Part shown: positions 1,218 through 22,565 of the stretch, piece after piece
Numbering within the stretch: position 1 is the stretch's first letter
Layout of the letters: each line of letters starts with the position of its first letter
Origin: Spirochaetae bacterium HGW-Spirochaetae-1
GTDB taxonomy: Bacteria; Spirochaetota; UBA4802; UBA5550
Direction of reading: 5' to 3'
Assembly (NCBI GenBank): GCA_002839375.1
Contig: PGXY01000003.1
Location: 1-33,552, forward strand
DNA length: 33,552 nucleotides
Notes under the pieces: model-generated
Databases searched by the model: none
What the model was told of the DNA's origin: nothing
Seen by the model: only the letters and a program-made list of their open reading frames with translations
Program-made: the position numbers and the translations under genes

Positions 1218-1463
1218 TTAATTCAGTTCTTCAGCCCGTTTCCTGAAAAGAAAATGGTAGATCATATCGCTGTAGCGGTCCATTTTTACCCGCCCTTTGC
1301 CGGACACGGAATAGCGCCAGAAGCCGTACAGTTTGGCAAGATTTATAAGGCGCTCACTGTAAAGCTCCCAGGTGAAGGCCGACTGGACCCGTTCAATCCC
1401 TCCCCGTGATACACTGTCCCAACTGCCGGGATCATTGATAAACCGTGCTATCTGCTCTTCCAT
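1218..1463 (-). pseudogene. detached C-terminal fragment of sucrose synthase
   Basis: This frame reads as the C-terminal tail of bacterial sucrose synthase: IARFINDP, then FTWELYSERLINLAKLYGFW, then a final DRYSDMIYHFLFRKRAEEL helix. It has no ribosome site of its own. The Met at 1463 is simply the first one after the break. Joined to the 711-residue frame upstream, it would give a protein of roughly 800 residues, the usual size, if about 17-24 residues were restored after the GGP turn. The missing piece is therefore not a multiple of three bases. Confidence 0.8.
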
Positions 1464-3567
1464 CCACGGGACCGCCGAAACGGGGCCCGAAAGTGGGAAG
1501 CCCCGTCACCATAGCTTCGAGAATGGTAAGCCCAAAGGCCTCAAAAAGAGCCGGCTGCACAAAGGCGCCCCGGTGATCGGCAATTACCCGGTACACTTCG
1601 CCCGTTTCCATTTTGTCGATACTGGGAAGCCACCGCACCCGGTCCTTCAGACCATAGTGCGCAATAAGTCCATGCATCTTCTCTATCTCCTTTCTTTCCT
1701 CGGCATCGGACGATTCCTCAAGCCTGATCGTTCCCGCTGCGACTATGAGGTTACAGTGTTCTTTCAGAAATTCACTCATGCCGAAAGCCTCCATCAGGCC
1801 GGTGATATTCTTGATTTTGTCAAGGCGGGCCATGGTAAACAGGGGCATCCTTTCAGTGTCGGCCAGCTCCCCCATGATATCGGCTACGGTGTCGGTGAAA
1901 ATTCTCTTTTCCCAGTATTCCGTGCGGTGAGATATCCTCTTCTCTCTTTCATAATGAGGAAAATAAAATTCCTGATCCACACCCGGCGGGATAACATTGA
2001 ATCGCGGCACATAGAGATTGATGCCGTTTCTCACCTGAAATAATCCCGGCATGGTGAAGAACTGATACGATTCGTACTGACCCATGGTCTCCTCCGTACC
2101 GGCGATTTCCTGATAGGTGCTGGTGATGATAAAATCAGCCTTGTTCATGGAAAGGAGGTCTGCGACAAACTGCAGGGAAAAGTTATATTCCTTTTCGTAT
2201 CCCTGCCAGTACGCGTCGGAAAAGAGGTACTTTGTTTTTTCCAGAGCATGCGCTATGGTACACTGAATGACATCCAGCTTATCGGAAAGAAGGGACGCCA
2301 CAAGGTTGCCGTCGGAGTAATTCCCGATGATAAGGTCGGGACGTCCCCGGAACTCGGCCAGAAGCGCATTGGCGGCATCCTCGGCAAATTTTTCCAGATA
2401 TGGCCAGATATGGAAGCGAGATATCCAGCTCTCCATTATATGGTCGTTTTTATCTTTAAAGGGGACCCTCAGTATCCAGCAATTGTCCGTTCCGTGTATC
2501 TTTTCCTTTCTTATGTTGCAGGTGGTGCCCAGCGCTTCGGGGATATACCGTGTCAGAACCACGATAGCCGGAACCACTTCGATTCCCGCCAGGGCGATAT
2601 CGCTCTTCAGCCGCTTTTCCAGCGCCCGCACCTGGTCCAGAATGTAAATCACCTGGCCGCCCGTGTCGGGCTTTCCCAGAACATTTTCCTGACCGAACCA
2701 TCCATGGGGAGAGATAACTGCAATCTTCGATATGAGCGGCATGGTGGTTCGAGAGAGAAATTTCTCCAGCAGTATGTCCGTTGGTTCATTTATAAGGTCT
2801 GCGAGCACCTGCATGGTCTCCAGAATCCTTCCGGCGGTATCGCCCCACCCCGGTTCGAATCCCGCCTTTTTCAGCTTATCCTGCAGCCGGGCCACAGGCG
2901 TATCCGGTTCCTGCTCTCCGAGAAAGCCCATTATATTTTCCAGCTCATTGACAAAACGGTCAAAATCCAGGGACATCCCTCCGTTCACGAGCAGTTGCTG
3001 ATTGTTATACGTATGAAGCTTCATGAATTCAAAAAGCTTCCTGTTCCACTCTTCGGGGCGATTGAATATATTACTGGAAAGATAGCGGTTGAGATAACGG
3101 ATACCGTTACCGAGATTCTTCGCGTCCTTCATTACCGGTGAATAGTCATAGAAAGGAAGGTAATCAATACGCAGGTGCTTGTCACCGGGCATACGGTTCA
3201 GGATGTGATACTCCTTCAGGTCAAGAAAACGGGATATATCTATCTCCTCCATGTAGGAACCGTCCACGCGGAGCATAAAGAACCGGTAGCGCGCGATCTG
3301 GCTCCTGTGCAGTATCACAAGGTAATGGTCCTGGTAAAATAACTCCTGTATTCTGCAGATAAAATTGTACACCGATGTCTCATTACGCCCCCTCCCCGCA
3401 CCGCTGTCTTCATGCAGGTCCATGAAACCGGCATAAGTGAGCATAATGTCATTCCGGAGCATAAAGCCCCCTTTCTGGGCCAGGGGAACAAGCACGCTGA
3501 CAAACTCCCGAAACAGGGCAATGTCTTCCTCGGTGATAATCCGGCCTATTAAATCAGCACCATCCAT
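1432..3567 (-). CDS. sucrose synthase, truncated by a frameshifting deletion near its C terminus
   Basis: Sucrose synthase reversibly makes sucrose from NDP-glucose and fructose. The 711-residue frame carries the family's N-terminal regulatory region, then the GT-B glycosyltransferase core: ISPHGWFGQ and GKPDTGGQVIYILDQ in the middle, IPPGVDQEFYFP, and the nucleotide-sugar E-x7-E motif in FEAFGLTILEAM. After GLPTF and a GGP turn the frame runs into eleven unrelated residues and stops. The family normally continues with an LEII...GFHIDP-type segment and about 80 further residues. Those further residues are present in another frame at 1218-1463. A ribosome site (GGAGG, 7 bases before ATG) is intact. 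The gene begins 20 bases after the sucrose-phosphate synthase stop, so the two were probably co-transcribed. The protein is probably inactive or altered, unless the gap is a sequencing or assembly error. Confidence 0.88.
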   Translation of the reverse strand: MDGADLIGRIITEEDIALFREFVSVLVPLAQKGGFMLRNDIMLTYAGFMDLHEDSGAGRGRNETSVYNFICRIQELFYQDHYLVILHRSQIARYRFFMLRVDGSYMEEIDISRFLDLKEYHILNRMPGDKHLRIDYLPFYDYSPVMKDAKNLGNGIRYLNRYLSSNIFNRPEEWNRKLFEFMKLHTYNNQQLLVNGGMSLDFDRFVNELENIMGFLGEQEPDTPVARLQDKLKKAGFEPGWGDTAGRILETMQVLADLINEPTDILLEKFLSRTTMPLISKIAVISPHGWFGQENVLGKPDTGGQVIYILDQVRALEKRLKSDIALAGIEVVPAIVVLTRYIPEALGTTCNIRKEKIHGTDNCWILRVPFKDKNDHIMESWISRFHIWPYLEKFAEDAANALLAEFRGRPDLIIGNYSDGNLVASLLSDKLDVIQCTIAHALEKTKYLFSDAYWQGYEKEYNFSLQFVADLLSMNKADFIITSTYQEIAGTEETMGQYESYQFFTMPGLFQVRNGINLYVPRFNVIPPGVDQEFYFPHYEREKRISHRTEYWEKRIFTDTVADIMGELADTERMPLFTMARLDKIKNITGLMEAFGMSEFLKEHCNLIVAAGTIRLEESSDAEERKEIEKMHGLIAHYGLKDRVRWLPSIDKMETGEVYRVIADHRGAFVQPALFEAFGLTILEAMVTGLPTFGPRFGGPVDGRADSTVYQ

Positions 3568-3587
3568 GCGTTATCCTCCTTAACAGA

Positions 3588-5765
3588 TCAATTTTTGCGG
3601 TTTAAAAAATCATAGTAATTGATACCCTCTGTTATGCCGCCAGCGCCGGCTCTTTCAGCAAAATATATTTTCCTCAGACCGCGGAGCTTTTCCAGCTCTT
3701 CACTGTAATTCCCCACAACGACGGCAGGCATGTCTCCGCGCAGCATCTCTTCATCGTTGCCTGAATCACCGCAGACAAGAATATTATCCATGGGGATATC
3801 CCATTTGTAGCTTATATACCGTATGGCCTTTCCCTTGGAAGCGCGATAGGGCAGAATATCCAGAAACTGATTATGCGAATAGATAAGATTATATTTCAAT
3901 TTCGCCGCAAGGAGCAGTTCGTGTGCTCTTGTCTGCCTGTCCCTCCCCGGCTCCATGAAATAGCTGATTTTGTATTTCCTCTGTGTCTCCTCTTCCTGTA
4001 TCTCAAGAAAGTCGGCCCTGTCCAATATTTCCCGTATCCTGTCACGTTCCCACCGGTGGGAGATATGGGTGTCCCAGCCTTTGTCATAAAATTTAGCGTC
4101 ACCGTAATATATTTCAGAACCAACCGAAGAGATGACAATATCCGGAGCCGGAATATCGTACTTCTTTATATATTTCAGAGCCGAATCCACGGTCCTTCCC
4201 GTTGCCAGGGCAAAACCCATGCTGTCCCGGTGTTCCTTCAGTATTTCAATAAGACCGGGAAGGCCGCTGTTATCATCACCGATAAGTGTGTTGTCGATAT
4301 CGGTTACCAGAAAATAATTCAGGCCCGTGATACGTTTCCCCACAGGGTTTGCCGACAGAGGACTGAATTCCTCCCGAGTCGTTCCCTTGAGCAGCTTTTT
4401 CAACGCCGATGTATATTTCTCAACATGGGCCTCCCAGGTATAATGCTTCCTGACATTGACAGCACCGTTACGCGAATATTTATCCCAGCGTTCCGGTTCG
4501 GTGATTATTTTTTTTATTTCCACGGCTATCGCAGCCGTATCGGAGGGATCCACCAATACGCCGTTTTTACAGTTTTCCACGATATCCCTGGGCCCCCCGT
4601 CGTTGGTGGCCACCATGGGAATCCCGCACGCTGAAGCCTCCAGGAGCGTCAGCCCAAATGGTTCAGTCAGAGCCACATTTACAAAAACACCTCTCCGTTC
4701 ACCCGTTATGTGATATAATTCGGGAACTTCATACTCAAAATCGTGCTTCTTGGGAATGGCCATTTTACCATACAGATCATAGGCATCCATGAGCAGGAGC
4801 ATTTCCGTAAGAACATCCTTCTCATTTTCCTCCATATCAGAAATCCATTTCCTGATCCCGGCAAAAATTGCAAGGTTTGCCATAGCCTGAAGTTCCAGGC
4901 TCTCACCATAGGCCCGTATAAGACCGGCAATATTTTTTCTCTTATCGGGCCGACACAGGGCCAGAATCAGGGGTTTTTCGGGAAAAATAAAAAACCTGTT
5001 CAACTCGTTGAGTACGGATACATAGGCATGTTTTTCCATCTCATCTTTCCGGTTTTCCGGAAGCATGCCATGATAAAAGGGGGAAAACTTTTCCAGATCC
5101 AGACCCGGGGGAATGATGGAATAATCCGGAATAGTCCGGTTGTGATACATACCATACTGTTTCTCTACTTCCTGACTCGTGCTGGTGATCACCAGGTCGG
5201 CCATTTCCATTATTTTTTCCTCCGTATCAATGCGCCGGTCGATACGGTATTTTTTTACAACGTCATCTTCAGACATTCCTTCATTGATAAGTTTTTGCCG
5301 TTTTGACCTCCCGAGGCTGTGTCCGGTAAAAACAAATGGTGTTCCGAAAAATTCAGAAAGTTGCATGGCCACATATCCGGCATCGGCATAGTGCCCATGA
5401 AAAACATCGGGGATGGAACCCTCACGTTTGATAAATATAAGCGTCTTGTCCACAAATTCGTCGAGGTGGGGCCAGAGGAGCTCCTTGCGCATATACTTCC
5501 TTCCCCCACACTGAATCCGGACTATTCTAAATTTTTCATCGACCTGTTCAATAGGGTTCGAATAGTCCACGGAAATGCCCTTATCGGCAATAAGCCGTGT
5601 AAAAAGGTCCACCTGTCTCACGGCGGGATGACGACCCAGGGATTTCCCGAGCTCCACCACGTATTTAATCTGCCCGCCCGTATCGGCGTCGCGCCCCATC
5701 TCCATATTTTCACTGCGTACCAGACCATGTATGCTGAAAAGCTGTATATACAGTCCTCTGCTCAT
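3588..5765 (-). CDS. sucrose-phosphate synthase with C-terminal HAD phosphatase domain
   Basis: This enzyme makes sucrose-6-phosphate from UDP-glucose and fructose-6-phosphate, and the fused domain may remove the phosphate. The first ~460 residues are a GT-B glycosyltransferase: SIHGLVR, GRDADTGGQIKYVVEL, FTGHSLGRSKRQKL, LALCRPDKRKNI, and E-x7-E in TEPFGLTLLEA. From about residue 485 an HAD phosphatase domain begins with DIDNTL (motif I, DxDxT). It ends with GDSGNDEEML near residue 665, as in sucrose-6F-phosphate phosphatase. I chose the ATG at 5765 because GGAGG lies 11 bases upstream. A GTG at 5783 would add six residues but overlaps that ribosome site. It follows rpsU by about 46 bases and precedes sucrose synthase by 20. 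With sucrose synthase broken, this could still make sucrose as a compatible solute. Confidence 0.92.
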   Translation of the reverse strand: MSRGLYIQLFSIHGLVRSENMEMGRDADTGGQIKYVVELGKSLGRHPAVRQVDLFTRLIADKGISVDYSNPIEQVDEKFRIVRIQCGGRKYMRKELLWPHLDEFVDKTLIFIKREGSIPDVFHGHYADAGYVAMQLSEFFGTPFVFTGHSLGRSKRQKLINEGMSEDDVVKKYRIDRRIDTEEKIMEMADLVITSTSQEVEKQYGMYHNRTIPDYSIIPPGLDLEKFSPFYHGMLPENRKDEMEKHAYVSVLNELNRFFIFPEKPLILALCRPDKRKNIAGLIRAYGESLELQAMANLAIFAGIRKWISDMEENEKDVLTEMLLLMDAYDLYGKMAIPKKHDFEYEVPELYHITGERRGVFVNVALTEPFGLTLLEASACGIPMVATNDGGPRDIVENCKNGVLVDPSDTAAIAVEIKKIITEPERWDKYSRNGAVNVRKHYTWEAHVEKYTSALKKLLKGTTREEFSPLSANPVGKRITGLNYFLVTDIDNTLIGDDNSGLPGLIEILKEHRDSMGFALATGRTVDSALKYIKKYDIPAPDIVISSVGSEIYYGDAKFYDKGWDTHISHRWERDRIREILDRADFLEIQEEETQRKYKISYFMEPGRDRQTRAHELLLAAKLKYNLIYSHNQFLDILPYRASKGKAIRYISYKWDIPMDNILVCGDSGNDEEMLRGDMPAVVVGNYSEELEKLRGLRKIYFAERAGAGGITEGINYYDFLNRKN

Positions 5766-5811
5766 AGGATACTTAACCTCCACATGATCTCTGAATTGGG
5801 GAAACGCCTGA

Positions 5812-6033
5812 TCAGCGAGACTTTCTCCTGGCCATGGCCTTTGCCCTGCGCTCCCTCTTTCTTCGCCTTCTCTCGGCTTCCTGTCTCTTTTTCCTTTTTT
5901 GTATGGAAGGCTTATCGTAATGCCGTCTCTTCTTCAGCTCTCTGAAAACACCTTCAAAGGCCATTCTTTTTTTCAGCTGTTTCAGAGCCTGCTCGATATT
6001 ATCAAGTACTTCAACTTCCAGTGGTCTAGTCAG
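5812..6033 (-). CDS. rpsU: 30S ribosomal protein S21 (apparent CTG start)
   Basis: This frame encodes 73 residues: [19 protein letters not shown], then [16 protein letters not shown] and a long Arg/Lys-rich tail ([17 protein letters not shown]), the classic S21 layout. S21 sits near the anti-Shine-Dalgarno end of 16S rRNA on the small subunit. In this frame a TAA occurs at 6049-6051, and no ATG, GTG or TTG lies between it and the conserved N terminus. The codon after a near-perfect ribosome site (GAAGGGGGTGA) is CTG at 6033. The first in-frame ATG is 23 codons further in and would delete the conserved N-terminal helix. A second CTG four codons downstream lies too far from the ribosome site. 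The gene is first in an apparent rpsU-sucrose gene unit. Confidence 0.85.
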
Positions 6034-6126: not shown

Positions 6127-6378
6127 TCAGATGATCACAACTCGGCTGGAACCGCATAAAGGGCAAAACAAATGTTTTTCTTCCTCGACATCCACCATAT
6201 CTTCCCATTGATTTGTGCAATCCTCGCACACGGCAATTATTTCACGGACAGGGACTGAAACATCCCCCTGCCCCTCTTTTTCTTCCTGAATTTCAAGGTC
6301 AGACTCAAACTCCCGGTAAAAATCATCATCGTAAACATAGTCATCAAAGTTATTCTCGAAATTGCCTTTCTTTTTCAT
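6127..6378 (-). CDS. small acidic protein with C-terminal zinc ribbon, function unknown
   Basis: I chose the start at ATG 6378 because AGAGGG precedes it by 8 bases. An ATG at 6396 has no good ribosome site. The product is 83 residues. The first half is very acidic and low in complexity (FENNFDDYVYDDDFY, then many Glu). The last ~30 residues hold two CxxC knuckles, CEDC and CPLC, about 18 residues apart, which should bind one zinc ion. Zinc ribbons of this type often mediate protein or nucleic-acid contacts, but I cannot name a family. It follows the GspC-like gene by 36 bases and is probably the last gene of the ectoine operon. Confidence 0.7.
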   Translation of the reverse strand: MKKKGNFENNFDDYVYDDDFYREFESDLEIQEEKEGQGDVSVPVREIIAVCEDCTNQWEDMVDVEEEKHLFCPLCGSSRVVII

Positions 6379-6414
6379 ACAAGAAACCCTCTGCATCAGA
6401 CTCTAACAACACAC

Positions 6415-7290
6415 TTATTCTTGAATATTGTATTCAAACTGAAGCAGTTTCCCTCTCCGATCCAGATCGACAACAATTTTCGACTCATCCTTCAGGGACT
6501 GCCACATGGAATAAAGCTTGTTCACACTATCCACTGTTTTCCCATTGATCCTTTTAACGATGTCGCCGCTCCTGACACCCAGTTTATATAAAATATTATA
6601 GGGCCTCACCTTCTGCAGGCGAAAGCCGGCAATAGCCCCGCCCCTGCGGTACGGTCCGGCCACCAGGCCCCGCATAGCGTTATCCAGATTATTCATAACG
6701 CGCTGTTTTATCTCGGCACGGCTGATGTTCTTTCGGATAACGCCGCCGTTATTGCGTAACACGGCTCCCTTGTTTGCGACTAATGACGCCTTCTCGCGCT
6801 TGTCGTATATACCGATTTTTTCAATCCTGTCCCCCGCTTTCAGATAAACGCGTTCCCTGGCTATCTTGACCAGCCGATATCCATATACTTCCTGCCACAG
6901 CCGGTAAACCCCGGGATCTTTTTCGCGCCTGCTCCGGATCATGGCACGGGCGATACTGCTGTGCCCGGTTATGGTCCCCACGAGAAAAAGATCATCGATA
7001 GGAACACCCGGTGCTGATTTCATTACACCGGACTCACCACTACCGCTCGATTCGGAACCGATTTTAAAAAAACCCGAGCCGATTATTGCCTTTCGGTATT
7101 CCTCGATTGATAAGCCGCCACGCTCTGTCCGCCGGATATTTTTTTTCACCCGGGACGCTGAGAACACCTTTGATTCCCTCAGATTTTCGCGATAATAAAA
7201 CCTTACACCCTGATTAATAGTCTGTGCCGACGTATAAGAAAAAAGTGTAACAGCGGCTATATTCATAAGATGATACCTGAGATTATCCAC
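6415..7290 (-). CDS. GspC-like type II secretion protein with PDZ domain
   Basis: The protein has about 291 residues. Near the N terminus is a single membrane segment (HLMNIAAVTLFSYTSA). Residues ~110-190 match the GspC homology region: DLFLVGTITG, SIARAMI, then a VYLKAGDRIEKIG strand. The last ~75 residues form a PDZ domain (GAIAGFRLQKV, LGVRSGDIVKRINGKTVDS). In type II secretion GspC links the outer-membrane secretin to the inner-membrane assembly. No other gsp gene is nearby. The GTG at 7290 starts 11 bases after the ectC stop and follows GAAGGG at a rather long 14 bases. An ATG at 7266 is an alternative. Longer forms starting inside ectC are unlikely. The tight junction to ectC suggests co-transcription. 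Confidence 0.72.
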   Translation of the reverse strand: MDNLRYHLMNIAAVTLFSYTSAQTINQGVRFYYRENLRESKVFSASRVKKNIRRTERGGLSIEEYRKAIIGSGFFKIGSESSGSGESGVMKSAPGVPIDDLFLVGTITGHSSIARAMIRSRREKDPGVYRLWQEVYGYRLVKIARERVYLKAGDRIEKIGIYDKREKASLVANKGAVLRNNGGVIRKNISRAEIKQRVMNNLDNAMRGLVAGPYRRGGAIAGFRLQKVRPYNILYKLGVRSGDIVKRINGKTVDSVNKLYSMWQSLKDESKIVVDLDRRGKLLQFEYNIQE

Positions 7291-7301
7291 AATAAAAACT
7301 T

Positions 7302-7694
7302 TTACCCTTCGAGTATAGAATAGGAACCGTCGCCGTCGTGCACTTCCGCACCCGTCAAAGGAGGAACAAAAACACAGATGAGCTTCATTTTCTTCGAACA
7401 CCGCAGCCAGTGCTCATCATTTTTGTCAAGCGCATAGAGCATCCCCGGCATTATTCCATACTTTTTCCCGTCACCGACCGTTTCAATCTCGCCTTCACCT
7501 TCAATGCAGTAAACGGCCTCTAAATGGTTCTTATACCAGATATGGGTCTCGGTGTCGGGAAATATTATTGTTTCATGAAAAGAGAACCCCATGCCGTCAT
7601 TTTTAAGAAGAATACGTCTGCTCAGCCAATTGCCGTTCCCGGCCATTATATCATGTTCTGACCCGATTATTTCATCTATCATTTTTACAATCAC
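7302..7694 (-). CDS. ectC: L-ectoine synthase
   Basis: EctC closes the ring of N-gamma-acetyl-diaminobutyrate to give ectoine, a cytoplasmic compatible solute. At 130 residues it has the normal length. It is a single cupin with the family features [40 protein letters not shown] and [15 protein letters not shown]; the Glu and His residues in these stretches form the metal site in this family. Its ATG overlaps the ectB stop (ATGA at 7691-7694), which points to coupled translation. No ectD hydroxylase, aspartokinase or EctR gene is present beside the cluster. Confidence 0.96.
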
Positions 7695-8968
7695 GAAGTC
7701 TCCCCCCTCAGCATATTCTTTTTCTTTTCCAGAACGTCGGCTATTGACTGTTCGATAATATCCAATCCCTTTATCAGCAGTTCCTCCTCTATCACCAGAG
7801 GCGGTAAAAATTTCACCACGTCATCACGGGCACCGGCCAGCTCTATGATCAGCCCTCGTTCAAAAGCGCAGGCTGATATCTCCTGCGCGAAGCCCTTCTC
7901 CGGTATATGCAGACCATAGACCATGCCCCTGCCGCGCACTGTCGCTCCCATTTCCGGAAAAGCGACGGCCATTTTTTCGAGGGATTCACGAAGTATCTTT
8001 TCCTTGTAATAGACGGCTTCGGTAAGGTTATCGTTCTCCCAGTAATCAAGCAGTTCCGTGGACGCCACGAAAGCCAGGTTGTTCCCCCTGAACGTTCCGG
8101 TATGCTCACCGGGCTTCCACTGGTCAAGTTCCGGTTTGAGCAGAACCATCGCAAGGGGCAGGCCGCCGCCAATGGACTTCGACAGCGTCACGATATCGGG
8201 ATTGATGCCCGAATCCTCGAAACTGAAAAACCTGCCGGTCCTGCCGTTACCCACCTGTATATCATCGATAATGAGGAGTATGTCAAAATCACGGCAGATA
8301 GCCTCTATGTTCCTCAGCCATTCCGGCGAGGCGACATTGACCCCGCCCTCGGCCTGGACCGTTTCCAGAATAATGGCCGCGGGACAGTCCACACCGCTGC
8401 TGTTGTCATTAAGAAATTTACGCAGGTATTCCGACGTGTCCACGCTGTCGCCGAAATAGCCGTCAAAGGGCATGAAGGTGACGTTAGACCGATTAATAAA
8501 AGCCTCATCCCGGTAAAAGGAGTTCCCCGTTACGGCCATAGAGCCCATGGTCAGCCCGTGAAAGGCATTCGTAAAGGCGATGATATTGGACCGTCCCTTT
8601 ACCATGCGTGCCAGCTTAAGCGACGTTTCAACGGCATTGGTGCCCGTGGGACCGGGGAACTGTATTTTGTAATCCATGTGCCGGGGCTCAAGAATGACCG
8701 AATAGAACTTCTGCAGAAAATTTTTCTTTGCCGTTGTCGCCTTATCCAGGCCGTGTACTATGCCGTTATTCTGGAGGTGTTCTATCAATTTTTCATTTAC
8801 ACGCGGATTGTTATGGCCGTAATTCAGCGTGCCGGCGCCGGCAAAAAAATCAATGTACTCCTTTCCCTGTTCATCACACATCACCGAACCCAGTGCGCTA
8901 TGGAACACCGTGGGAAAGGTACGGACATAGCTCCGCACCTGCGATTCAAGCTGCTCAAATATCCTCAT
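7691..8968 (-). CDS. ectB: diaminobutyrate-2-oxoglutarate transaminase
   Basis: EctB converts aspartate-beta-semialdehyde to L-2,4-diaminobutyrate with glutamate as amino donor, the first committed step to ectoine. The 425 residues form a complete class III aminotransferase: [15 protein letters not shown] near the N terminus, [18 protein letters not shown], the cofactor Asp in [15 protein letters not shown], and the PLP lysine in [11 protein letters not shown]. The [12 protein letters not shown] stretch is typical of EctB. A strong ribosome site (AAGGAG) precedes the ATG, and ectA ends 20 bases upstream. Confidence 0.96.
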
Positions 8969-8988: not shown

Positions 8989-9516
8989 TTAATTTTCAGA
9001 TAGACGGAACGGCCCTATCCTGAGAAGCACTTCATCCTCGTGGGCGTCTTTTCCAAACAGTTCAGCGGGATAACATATCTCCTCGATACAATGAGTCTTT
9101 AGTTCGCCGGCAAGGGAATAAAACATATTTCTCGAGGCGTCGTTGGACGGCGTAACAGTTGTTTCGATATATGAAACCGAATGAAACGCCGGCCTGCGAA
9201 TGAGATGCTTCAGCATTCCTATACCAAGCCCTTTTCTCCTAAAACGAGGATGAACGGCCACCTGCCACACGAAAAACGTATCACGCCGGGAAGGATGGAG
9301 GTATCCCGAGATAAACCCCGCAGGACCTGAATTGCTCCCGGCGAATATGCAGGTATCCCTGAAATGATCGCAGAGAAGCATATAATTGTATCGGGAATTG
9401 ATATCCAGCGGTTTGCACAGATCAACCAGGTTGTAAACCGCCGCAGCGTCTTTGATTTCAGGGGGTCGGAAAAATAGCTCGTCATTTTCAATTACATAAA
9501 TATTCGTATCTTTGAT
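8989..9516 (-). CDS. ectA: L-2,4-diaminobutyrate acetyltransferase (non-canonical start)
   Basis: EctA acetylates diaminobutyrate with acetyl-CoA, the second step of ectoine synthesis. A GNAT fold is evident: VWQVAVHPRFRRKGLGIGML is the acetyl-CoA loop, followed by ETTVTPSNDASRNMFYSLA. The first in-frame ATG is at 9381 and gives only 130 residues. The family's N-terminal block (LFFRPPEIKDAAAVYNLV, then PLDINSRYNYMLLC) lies upstream in the same open frame, so the real start must lie between the TGA at 9529-9531 and about 9480. No ATG, GTG or TTG occurs there. ATC at 9516, five bases after GGAGG, is the best-placed codon (about 175 residues, the normal length). ACG at 9507 and ATT at 9501 are alternatives. 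A frameshift or base error is also possible. Confidence 0.85.
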   Translation of the reverse strand: MKDTNIYVIENDELFFRPPEIKDAAAVYNLVDLCKPLDINSRYNYMLLCDHFRDTCIFAGSNSGPAGFISGYLHPSRRDTFFVWQVAVHPRFRRKGLGIGMLKHLIRRPAFHSVSYIETTVTPSNDASRNMFYSLAGELKTHCIEEICYPAELFGKDAHEDEVLLRIGPFRLSEN

Positions 9517-9592
9517 ACACTCCTCCCTTCACTGCCTGGATTTCCGGTACATTCCGAAAGGGGAATTCTCTGTAAAAACTCCCTTACGTTAA

Positions 9593-9621
9593 AGGATAAG
9601 AAAGGGAGGGTTACCCGTCAA
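9593..9621 (-). promoter_or_regulatory. predicted promoter of the ectoine operon
   Basis: On the minus strand TTGACG (9616-9621) and TATCCT (9593-9598) are separated by exactly 17 bases. Transcription would start near 9586, giving a leader of about 70 bases before ectA. The -35 box abuts the inverted repeat at 9625-9634. Confidence 0.7.
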
Positions 9622-13124: not shown

Positions 13125-13170
13125 AGTGTAAACTTTACAATCAACATTTCTATTCAGGGTGAACATATTT

Positions 13171-13737
13171 ATGAAAAAGAAAAATCTTATGTATATTCTC
13201 GTGCTTGTCTCAGCACTCCTTTTCATCGGTTCATGCTCAAAAACTGACGACACCGCTTTATCCGGCGACCGGGGTGAATCCGTGGCCTGGATGAATTTCA
13301 ATGAGGGTTACAAAAAGGCCCTGGCAGAAAAAAAACCCATGGTCATTGATTTCTACGCCGACTGGTGCAAATGGTGCAAAGTCATGGACACTGAGACCTT
13401 CAGCGACGGCGAGGTGGCGAAAAAACTGAAAAACGATTATGTGGCAATCCGCATTCATACGGACACGCAGGCCCACGAGCGGCTTAAATTCAACAATCAC
13501 GAATTTTCCGTGCAGGAGTTCAGTTCAATGATGGGCGTCCAGGGACTTCCCACTGTGGTTTTTATGGACCGCACGGGAAAACCCATTACCCAGATACCGG
13601 GATTCTTAAAAAAGGACGTATTTCTCCCTTTGCTCAACTATATCACCGAGGAGTGCTACAACAGGAATGTTCCCTTTGAATCATATATGAAAGATGATAA
13701 GGCCTGCCAGAAGATTAAATCATCAGGAACGCCTTGA
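13171..13737 (+). CDS. thioredoxin-fold lipoprotein
   Basis: The product has 188 residues from the ATG at 13171, which AGGG precedes at good spacing. A GTG at 13159 lies within that ribosome site and is unlikely. The N terminus is a lipoprotein signal: KKK, a hydrophobic stretch, and a lipobox ending IGSC. The mature part has the thioredoxin-like active site DFYADWCKWCKVMD, then GVQGLPTVVFMDRTG with the cis-Pro. This resembles the C-terminal domain of DsbD and thioredoxin_7 proteins and suggests a membrane-anchored extracytoplasmic thiol-disulfide protein. A close paralogue follows 21 bases downstream. The partner and substrate are unknown. Confidence 0.85.
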   Translation: MKKKNLMYILVLVSALLFIGSCSKTDDTALSGDRGESVAWMNFNEGYKKALAEKKPMVIDFYADWCKWCKVMDTETFSDGEVAKKLKNDYVAIRIHTDTQAHERLKFNNHEFSVQEFSSMMGVQGLPTVVFMDRTGKPITQIPGFLKKDVFLPLLNYITEECYNRNVPFESYMKDDKACQKIKSSGTP

Positions 13738-13758
13738 TTTTTAAGGATTAATAAAACT

Positions 13759-14274
13759 ATGAAAAAAATATTTCTTTTTACTGCAATCATAGCCGCAGTC
13801 GCAATATATGCATTTCCAGGTCCGACGCAGGCAGAACAGCTTCGATGGTATTCCTTTAACGAGGGATTAGCTCAGGCCCGCATTCAGAAAAAACCTGTGG
13901 TACTGGATTTTTATGCCGACTGGTGCCACTGGTGCAAGGTCATGGACCGGGACACCTTCAATGACAAAAAAGTGGCTGAATATCTGGGTGCCCATTATAT
14001 CCTGATACGGATAAACACGGAAGACAGAAGCAAAACCGTACTGTACCAGGGACAGTCCTTTTCAAATGCGAATTTTTTCAGAATGGTTGGAGGCACCGGG
14101 CTCCCCACGGTGGTTTTCATGGACAGACAGGGAAATCTCATCACGAAGATACCGGGCTACATAGAAAAAGGGGTCTTTCTTCCCCTTTTAGGATACATTA
14201 AAAGCGAGTGCTACCTGAAACAGGTTCCTTTCGATGAGTCATATATTCAGGGAAAGAATCCCTGCACCAGATAA
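13759..14274 (+). CDS. periplasmic thioredoxin-fold protein
   Basis: This 171-residue protein has a cleavable-type signal peptide (MKKIFLFTAIIAAVAIYAFP, with likely cleavage after TQA). The thioredoxin-like site is DFYADWCHWCKVMD and the cis-Pro loop is GTGLPTVVFMDRQG. It is a tandem paralogue of the lipoprotein before it: both share WYSFNEG/WMNFNEG, PGF/PGY and FLPLL blocks and an EC pair near the C terminus. One is predicted to be lipid-anchored and the other soluble, so they may act as a relay on exported thiols. It converges with the barrel-protein gene, with nine bases between stops and no obvious terminator. Confidence 0.85.
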   Translation: MKKIFLFTAIIAAVAIYAFPGPTQAEQLRWYSFNEGLAQARIQKKPVVLDFYADWCHWCKVMDRDTFNDKKVAEYLGAHYILIRINTEDRSKTVLYQGQSFSNANFFRMVGGTGLPTVVFMDRQGNLITKIPGYIEKGVFLPLLGYIKSECYLKQVPFDESYIQGKNPCTR

Positions 14275-21797: not shown

Positions 21798-22565
21798 ATG
21801 GAAATATCATTATCGGTATTCATCTTTTTTTTCGGCGCCCTCTGGGGCAGTTTTTTTTATACACTGTCATTGCGTTATGCAAACGGCAGCATGGCTGCCC
21901 ATCCCTTCCAGGCTCTGTTTTCATCATCGCGGTGTCCCTGCTGTGCGGAAAAAATATCCCCCCTGTACCTGGTGCCGCTCCTGGGATTTCTGGCACTGCG
22001 GGGAAAATGTAAAAGCTGCGGCGCCTCCATTTCGTGGATATATCCCGCCGCTGAAATAGCCAGCGGTCTGCTGCTTCTCTTCATGACGCAAACCATGGGT
22101 TTCTATCCCGGTACCATGCTCACTTTCATGCTCATTCAGACAGCAATGGCCATTTCAATAGTTGATGTAAAAACTCTCACGATCCCCGATTCTCTCATTG
22201 CGCTCTTCCTCATGCTTTCCCTGTACCCCATGGTACTCCACAACACCTTCAGGGATTCCCTTTATGGACTTATCCTTATGTCCCTCTTTTTCATAGTAAT
22301 ATTGCTGATTTTCCCCGGTTCCTTCGGGGGCGGCGATGTAAAATTCTCCGCGATGATCGGTCTCTATTCGGGACTTGAACTTTCCCTGGTAGTACTGGAA
22401 ACGGCACTGATTACCGGCGCCCTGGCGGGCGTCTTCTATGCGGTGATAACAAAAAAGGGATTCCGCAGTAAAATCCCTTTTGGCCCCTTTCTTGCCCTGG
22501 GCCTCGTCGTATCAATTCTTTACGGCCGGGATATCATCCTGATCTACTACCGGTTCATGCGCTGA
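21798..22565 (+). CDS. prepilin peptidase (type IV leader peptidase, A24)
   Basis: This inner-membrane aspartic protease cleaves and N-methylates prepilins and pseudopilins of type IV pili and type II secretion. The 255 residues show an N-terminal GALWGSFFYTL, two CxxC pairs (CPCC, CKSC) in the cytoplasmic loop, the first catalytic Asp region IVDVKTLTIPD, and the second in FGGGDVKF, with about seven membrane helices. The ribosome site is weak. It could serve the machinery to which the GspC-like protein belongs, but no pilin or secretion cluster is here. Its end overlaps the mtnA end by 11 bases. Confidence 0.92.
   Translation: MEISLSVFIFFFGALWGSFFYTLSLRYANGSMAAHPFQALFSSSRCPCCAEKISPLYLVPLLGFLALRGKCKSCGASISWIYPAAEIASGLLLLFMTQTMGFYPGTMLTFMLIQTAMAISIVDVKTLTIPDSLIALFLMLSLYPMVLHNTFRDSLYGLILMSLFFIVILLIFPGSFGGGDVKFSAMIGLYSGLELSLVVLETALITGALAGVFYAVITKKGFRSKIPFGPFLALGLVVSILYGRDIILIYYRFMR

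Follow-up and report, generated by a model that had tools for sequence, protein, structure and literature searches.

The question raised by this locus is why a protein of the type II secretion system should be encoded together with the enzymes of ectoine biosynthesis. GspC joins the inner-membrane platform of the secretion machine to the secretin, and its PDZ domain is thought to help in the choice of substrates. The gene studied here, gspC2, lies directly behind ectC in a spirochaete. The stretch of DNA analysed (the window) corresponds to bases 1–33,552 of a contig of 725 kb, and the genome of 5.2 Mb is assembled in 14 contigs with 96.5% completeness.

Organization of the ectABC-gspC2-znR2 locus

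The genes ectA, ectB, ectC, gspC2 and znR2 follow one another in this order, all on the minus strand. Upstream of ectA in the direction of transcription are genes for a PAS histidine kinase and a LuxR-type response regulator, also on the minus strand. The three ectoine genes score above the cut-offs of their models. These are ectA (diaminobutyrate acetyltransferase, ∼8989–9516 (−); TIGR02406, 143 bits, cut-off 120.6), ectB (diaminobutyrate–2-oxoglutarate transaminase, 7691–8968 (−); TIGR02407, 650 bits, cut-off 552) and ectC (ectoine synthase, 7302–7694 (−), with its stop codon at 7304–7302; NF009806, 185 bits, cut-off 128). They are adjacent and in the same order as in the ectoine biosynthesis operon ectABC, from which the present locus differs in that gspC2 and znR2 have been appended. 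gspC2 (6415–7290 (−)) encodes a protein of 291 amino acids, starting with GTG at 7290 and ending with a stop codon at 6417–6415. znR2 (6127–6378 (−)) starts with ATG at 6378 and encodes an acidic zinc-ribbon protein of 83 amino acids. Only 11 bases separate the stop codon of ectC from the GTG of gspC2, and 36 bases separate the stop codon of gspC2 from the ATG of znR2. The description of these two genes as an appendage to ectABC, made in the initial annotation, is thus borne out.

The start of ectA is irregular. When translated from the first ATG (9381) the match to TIGR02406 begins only at profile position 31. The frame is open upstream of this ATG, and there is no in-frame ATG, GTG or TTG at the expected N-terminus. 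The sequence AGGGAGGAG is located just upstream of a candidate start codon ATC at 9516–9514 (window 8989–9528), and our guess is that translation begins at this ATC, directly after AGGGAGGAG. An unusual start codon like ATC is possible, as is a base error.

A promoter-like site with the form TTGACG-17-TATCCT, matching the consensus at 9 of 12 positions, lies upstream of ectA (9593–9621 (−)). Further promoter-like sites on the operon strand are found inside ectB (8442–8415) and after znR2 (6088–6061). Neither the 11- nor the 36-base gap contains a promoter-like or terminator-like site, in agreement with the earlier statement that no promoter is visible between the genes. The consensus scan has little power, and carries little weight because the numbers of sites in the region are no higher than in shuffles (six sigma-70 promoter sites against 5.3 expected, and three terminator sites against 4.5 expected by chance). 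By layout gspC2 would belong to the ectoine operon, with the same strand, short gaps and, in this low-power scan, no signal in between.

Genes for sucrose synthase and sucrose-phosphate synthase/phosphatase (1432–5783 (−)) lie beside the ectoine operon, and the sucrose and ectoine genes together are likely to be a compatible-solute locus. Between znR2 and the sucrose-phosphate synthase gene is rpsU, encoding ribosomal protein S21 (5812–6033 (−); PF01165, 54 bits), which appears to begin with CTG. Elsewhere in the window there are two adjacent thioredoxin-like genes (13159–14274 (+)), one with a lipoprotein-like start and the other with a signal-peptide-like start as judged by reading.

GspC2 has the anatomy of a GspC protein

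To judge from model and homology, GspC2 comprises a transmembrane helix, a linker, the GspC homology region (HR, ∼94–166) and a C-terminal PDZ domain (∼187–292, both in P0001 numbering), as do the proteins of the GspC/EpsC/OutC/PulC family. It is homologous over its full length to those GspC proteins of its relatives that are encoded beside gspD or gspE, with 35–50% identity over long matches. The NCBIfam GspC models are hit below their cut-offs, with E = 1.1e-31 and 110.8 bits for GspC_delta (NF041515, cut-off 150), and E = 2.8e-15 and 56.6 bits for TIGR01713, again below the curated cut-off. The GspC protein from the gsp cluster of the same genome (GspC1, see below) also scores under both curated cut-offs (113.8 bits with NF041515 and 69.8 bits with TIGR01713). 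Since it falls short too, the low scores are a trait of the lineage and not a mark of decay. GspC2 differs from the known family in its location outside a gsp cluster and in its scores under the equivalog cut-offs, the latter being shared with GspC1.

The AlphaFold2 model of GspC2 contains an N-terminal helix, a disordered linker, the HR and the PDZ domain. Overall confidence is modest (mean pLDDT = 73.7, pTM = 0.37), while the HR is modelled as six strands with pLDDT of 92–96. The best PDB match of the PDZ domain in Foldseek is the EpsC PDZ domain of Vibrio cholerae (2i4s), and the commonest other matches are PDZ domains of the DegP/DegQ type. No GspC HR structure was present among the 50 Foldseek matches listed for the model. 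The family profile does match a solved GspC HR (2lnv, E = 3.7e-4) and the EpsC PDZ domain. GspC2 thus combines a six-stranded HR with a C-terminal PDZ domain by model and profile, and both its homology and its predicted fold identify it as a true GspC. The initial annotation had called the HR and PDZ domain clear. This is supported by the relatives and by the model, but the Pfam T2SSC and PDZ matches of GspC2 are below cut-off; indeed a Pfam T2SSC search of the genome misses both of its full GspC copies. The same search gives a weak match on another contig (C4; E = 0.029) in a frame of 128 amino acids. The net charge of GspC2 is high (+27), but as that of the relative L005 is +31, no adaptation to salt was read from it. 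A reading of gspC2 as a pseudogene was rejected, as its frame is open and conserved columns are kept.

The genome has a second gspC and a single secretin

A gsp cluster is located on another contig (C2), with its own gspC and gspD. The D, E, G and N proteins score over the NCBIfam cut-offs, and C, F, I, J and K match their models below cut-off. The protein at the H position has a prepilin-type start, that at the L position matches PilM and, weakly, GspL, and that at the M position matches nothing and is named by its place only. GspC1 and GspC2 are 53%, 50% or 48% identical in three alignments. gspC2 is thus the second GspC gene of the genome. The idea that it might be a lone gspC, missing from a cluster elsewhere, was rejected, as the cluster carries GspC1. 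Two observations had been named beforehand as together counting against the initial reading. One of these, a complete gspC in a gsp cluster elsewhere, was made here. The other would be a promoter of its own upstream of gspC2, and the consensus scan, with its little power, showed none.

Searches with PF00263 and TIGR02517 each lead to the same result, one secretin in the genome, and revealed no second secretin that might be a partner of GspC2.

No other structural gsp gene is near gspC2, but the earlier statement that no other type II secretion genes are near has to be qualified. A prepilin peptidase of the GspO type (PF06750 A24_N_bact and PF01478 Peptidase_A24) is encoded in the same window (21798–22565 (+)), ∼14.5 kb from gspC2 and on a different contig from the gsp cluster. 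As the only match to PF06750 in the genome, it is probably responsible for the maturation of the type II pseudopilins.

gspC2 is an old duplicate

In a tree of 31 GspC proteins GspC2 falls within its own family, grouped with the cluster copy and L016 (support 96/86), and, more broadly, with the cluster copy, L016, L005 and L014 (95/91). A horizontal origin was rejected on this basis. Topology tests are compatible with either the cluster copy (p-AU = 0.109) or L005 (p-AU = 0.125) as the exact sister of GspC2. In a tree of the HR alone GspC2 lies outside the family, with weak support, and has the longest of all end branches. The GC content of each gspC copy resembles that of its own neighbourhood.

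The two proteins of this genome differ unevenly along their length, with 71% identity in the PDZ part and 41% in the HR. In view of this difference we considered that the copies might have arisen by a recent duplication, or that gene conversion might have acted on the PDZ part. Both were rejected, since the four-fold degenerate sites are randomized (2 of 19 agree) and no identical run is longer than 11 bases. The combination of a PDZ domain 71% identical in protein with four-fold sites so little alike points to an old duplication, and from these sequence comparisons we take gspC2 to be an old, family-internal duplicate under purifying selection.

Within the HR, strands 1–3 of GspC2 and GspC1 are 56% identical, which equals the mean among the relatives, while strands 4–6 are 30% identical. 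Strands 1–3 form most of the contact with the N0 domain of GspD, according to a published account (PMC3169554). Taken as a whole, the HR of GspC2 is third lowest of the 31 proteins in mean identity. Among the 62 columns that are conserved at ≥85% in 29 relatives, seven are changed in GspC2, one of these being the GTG start read as V, and three in GspC1. The HR and linkers have changed faster in GspC2 than in GspC1.

The zinc-ribbon protein is also a second copy

Members of the znR2 family carry the motif DD-VY-D-YY at the N-terminus, together with an acidic linker and a CxxC...CPxCGS ribbon. znR2 scores below the cut-offs for FmdB-type zinc ribbons (PF09723, 21.2 bits, cut-off 34.4; TIGR02605, 21.4 bits, cut-off 31.3), and none of four family members tested was above any Pfam or NCBIfam cut-off. 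Of 392 genomes in the phylum, 100 gave a match to the family in an alignment search based on 12 members. A search with the znR2 protein alone missed the uvrA-linked copy of the same genome, which was recovered by the alignment search.

In each of the 30 best-scoring loci (L095–L124) the znR gene stops at the uvrA start or a short distance from it, as noted also for L057 (4263–4556 (−)). The present genome contributes one of these 30 loci. With one copy adjoining uvrA there, znR2 is the genome's second member of the family found before uvrA. It shares the motif, the acidic linker and the ribbon with the uvrA-preceding acidic zinc-ribbon protein of Spirochaetota, and differs in having a shortened loop and in lying away from uvrA. 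Another copy that lies away from uvrA is a second znR gene in genome G006 (L036, 1495–1743 (−)). This is, by reading, the other copy most similar to znR2, and it adjoins a gene that reads as PIN/PhoH-like. G006 gives no match to ectC, so a second znR copy is not specific to ectoine. gspC2 and znR2 are thus better read as two second copies; the gsp cluster holds the first copy of the one, and the first copy of the other precedes uvrA.

Across the 392 genomes the znR family and GspC co-occur strongly (79 genomes with both, 9 with GspC only and 21 with znR only), in counts that are not corrected for kinship. The uvrA-linked protein may be a partner of the repair protein UvrA, or may regulate it; one literature search on uvrA and zinc ribbons in spirochaetes found no paper.

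The arrangement is seen in a single genome

Within the order, 38 of 46 genomes (the present one included) have a GspC match at E 1e-12 or better. Two such matches occur only in the present genome, and in none of the 45 others. At each of the 29 loci of the order that were examined (L005 to L033) gspC is located beside gspD (27) or gspE (2).

In the wider survey of the phylum 88 of 392 genomes have GspC alignment matches, and five of these have more than one. In G203 three GspC-like stretches lie in a row directly before gspD (L088, 5391–8001 (+)), one of them nearly full length, while the other two cover chiefly the C-terminal part. G072 and G089 each have a second match that is of PDZ length. 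The second GspC of G144 is cut by the end of its contig and may be complete, and next to the first GspC of that genome there is another weak stretch. No other gsp genes were detected by blast with the proteins of the present genome around the main GspC of G072, G089 or G144, in stretches of 6–20 kb. These three genomes (L090, L130 and L127, respectively) belong to distant families of the phylum. From sequence context, gspC may have moved out of the gsp cluster in their lineages. Since an unlinked gspC is not unusual elsewhere in the phylum, an unlinked place alone needs no special reason.

ectC is found in seven of the 392 genomes, the present one included. In the other six, GspC is on another contig in four and was not found in two; the frames around ectC were read with overlapping frames dropped, and one contig ends ∼400 bases past ectC. 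A search of the contig collection with GspC2 gave a single relative, L052. Literature searches on ectoine together with gspC, and on genes downstream of ectC, showed nothing on this arrangement among the open-licence PMC papers listed.

Discussion

We propose that GspC2 is an accessory GspC that is made with the ectoine enzymes, shares the single secretin with GspC1 and alters export under osmotic stress, a proposal to which we give an even chance. gspC2 would be transcribed with ectABC; its position after ectC makes co-expression with ectoine synthesis likely. GspC2 would then accumulate when osmotic stress induces the synthesis of ectoine, and its HR would dock onto N0 of the only GspD. Because one secretin was found along with two GspC proteins of full anatomy, GspC2 most likely serves the same machine, where it would compete with GspC1 or replace it. 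Its PDZ domain, with the diverged linkers, might select or support another subset of exported proteins, or might keep the machine coupled in a salt-loaded periplasm. A selective role has a parallel in V. cholerae, where the GspC PDZ domain is required for only a subset of substrates according to PMC12369372. The zinc-ribbon protein would probably be a passenger in the transcript, or have a cytoplasmic role of its own.

This proposal draws on the presence of a gspC in the gsp cluster itself, the single secretin, the conserved GspC features, the age of the duplication with its signs of purifying selection, and the short intergenic gaps. The retention of HR strands 1–3, the pLDDT of the HR, the match to 2lnv and the compatible-solute neighbours also speak for it. 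Against it stand the restriction of the arrangement to one genome and the unlinked gspC genes of G072, G089 and G144. The same is true of the missing partner secretin, the low mean identity of the whole HR, the modest overall confidence of the model and the lack of a GspC HR structure among the 50 Foldseek matches listed. A more specific version is an osmotic-stress switch. A single secretin would be served by two GspC proteins, of which one comes from the gsp cluster and the other is produced solely together with the ectoine enzymes, and the exported set or the salt tolerance of the coupling would vary with salinity. We regard this version as unlikely.

The same observations on distribution would be explained if gspC2 were a redundant GspC gene that came to lie behind ectC by chance. 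Its product would still be made with the ectoine enzymes, and would affect dosage only or be exchanged for GspC1 without a change of substrates. The GspC modules and most of the conserved residues are retained in GspC2, the linkage to ectC is seen in one genome only, and gspC is unlinked elsewhere in the phylum. The adjoining znR2, itself the second copy of a gene unrelated to gspC, fits a haphazard assembly. Yet the gene has been kept for long enough that its synonymous sites are randomized, and its HR and linkers have changed faster than those of GspC1, which suggests some specialization. We regard simple redundancy as somewhat unlikely. Alternatively, GspC2 may have departed from type II secretion and act as a stand-alone, membrane-anchored periplasmic PDZ protein, for example in envelope stress during osmotic shock. 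The low identity of its HR could, as far as sequence goes, mean a loss of secretin binding. Strands 4–6 in particular have diverged from GspC1, and the matches to DegP/DegQ-type PDZ domains are in keeping with such a function. But the secretin-facing strands 1–3 are as similar to those of GspC1 as the relatives are to one another, and the HR folds confidently in the model; a PDZ protein acting alone would need neither feature, and we consider this improbable.

gspC2 might instead form a transcript of its own with znR2, unrelated to ectoine, from a promoter invisible to the consensus scan. The sigma-70 scan did no better than shuffles, and other types of promoter fall outside it. With just 11 bases between ectC and gspC2, however, such a promoter would have to sit inside ectC or further up, and we think a separate transcript very improbable.

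The accessory GspC proposed here is comparable, by analogy, to XphA of Pseudomonas aeruginosa. There, according to PMC6567927, the genes xphA and xqhA are located away from the xcp locus, give a hybrid Xcp system and are responsive to environmental conditions. In both organisms a gspC copy is found outside the main cluster in a genome whose cluster has a gspC of its own, and in both its regulation is expected to differ from that of the cluster. XphA, in contrast, has a partner secretin, XqhA, whereas no secretin partner was found for gspC2 in a genome with a single secretin and hence without a GspD dedicated to the second copy. gspC2 differs too in being located in the osmolyte operon of a spirochaete.

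Should gspC2 prove to be no more than a chance duplicate, it would be a small oddity confined to one genome. As an accessory GspC it would be of wider use, since one secretin served by two GspC proteins, one of them apparently tied to stress, would let the role of GspC in the choice of substrates be compared on the same channel.
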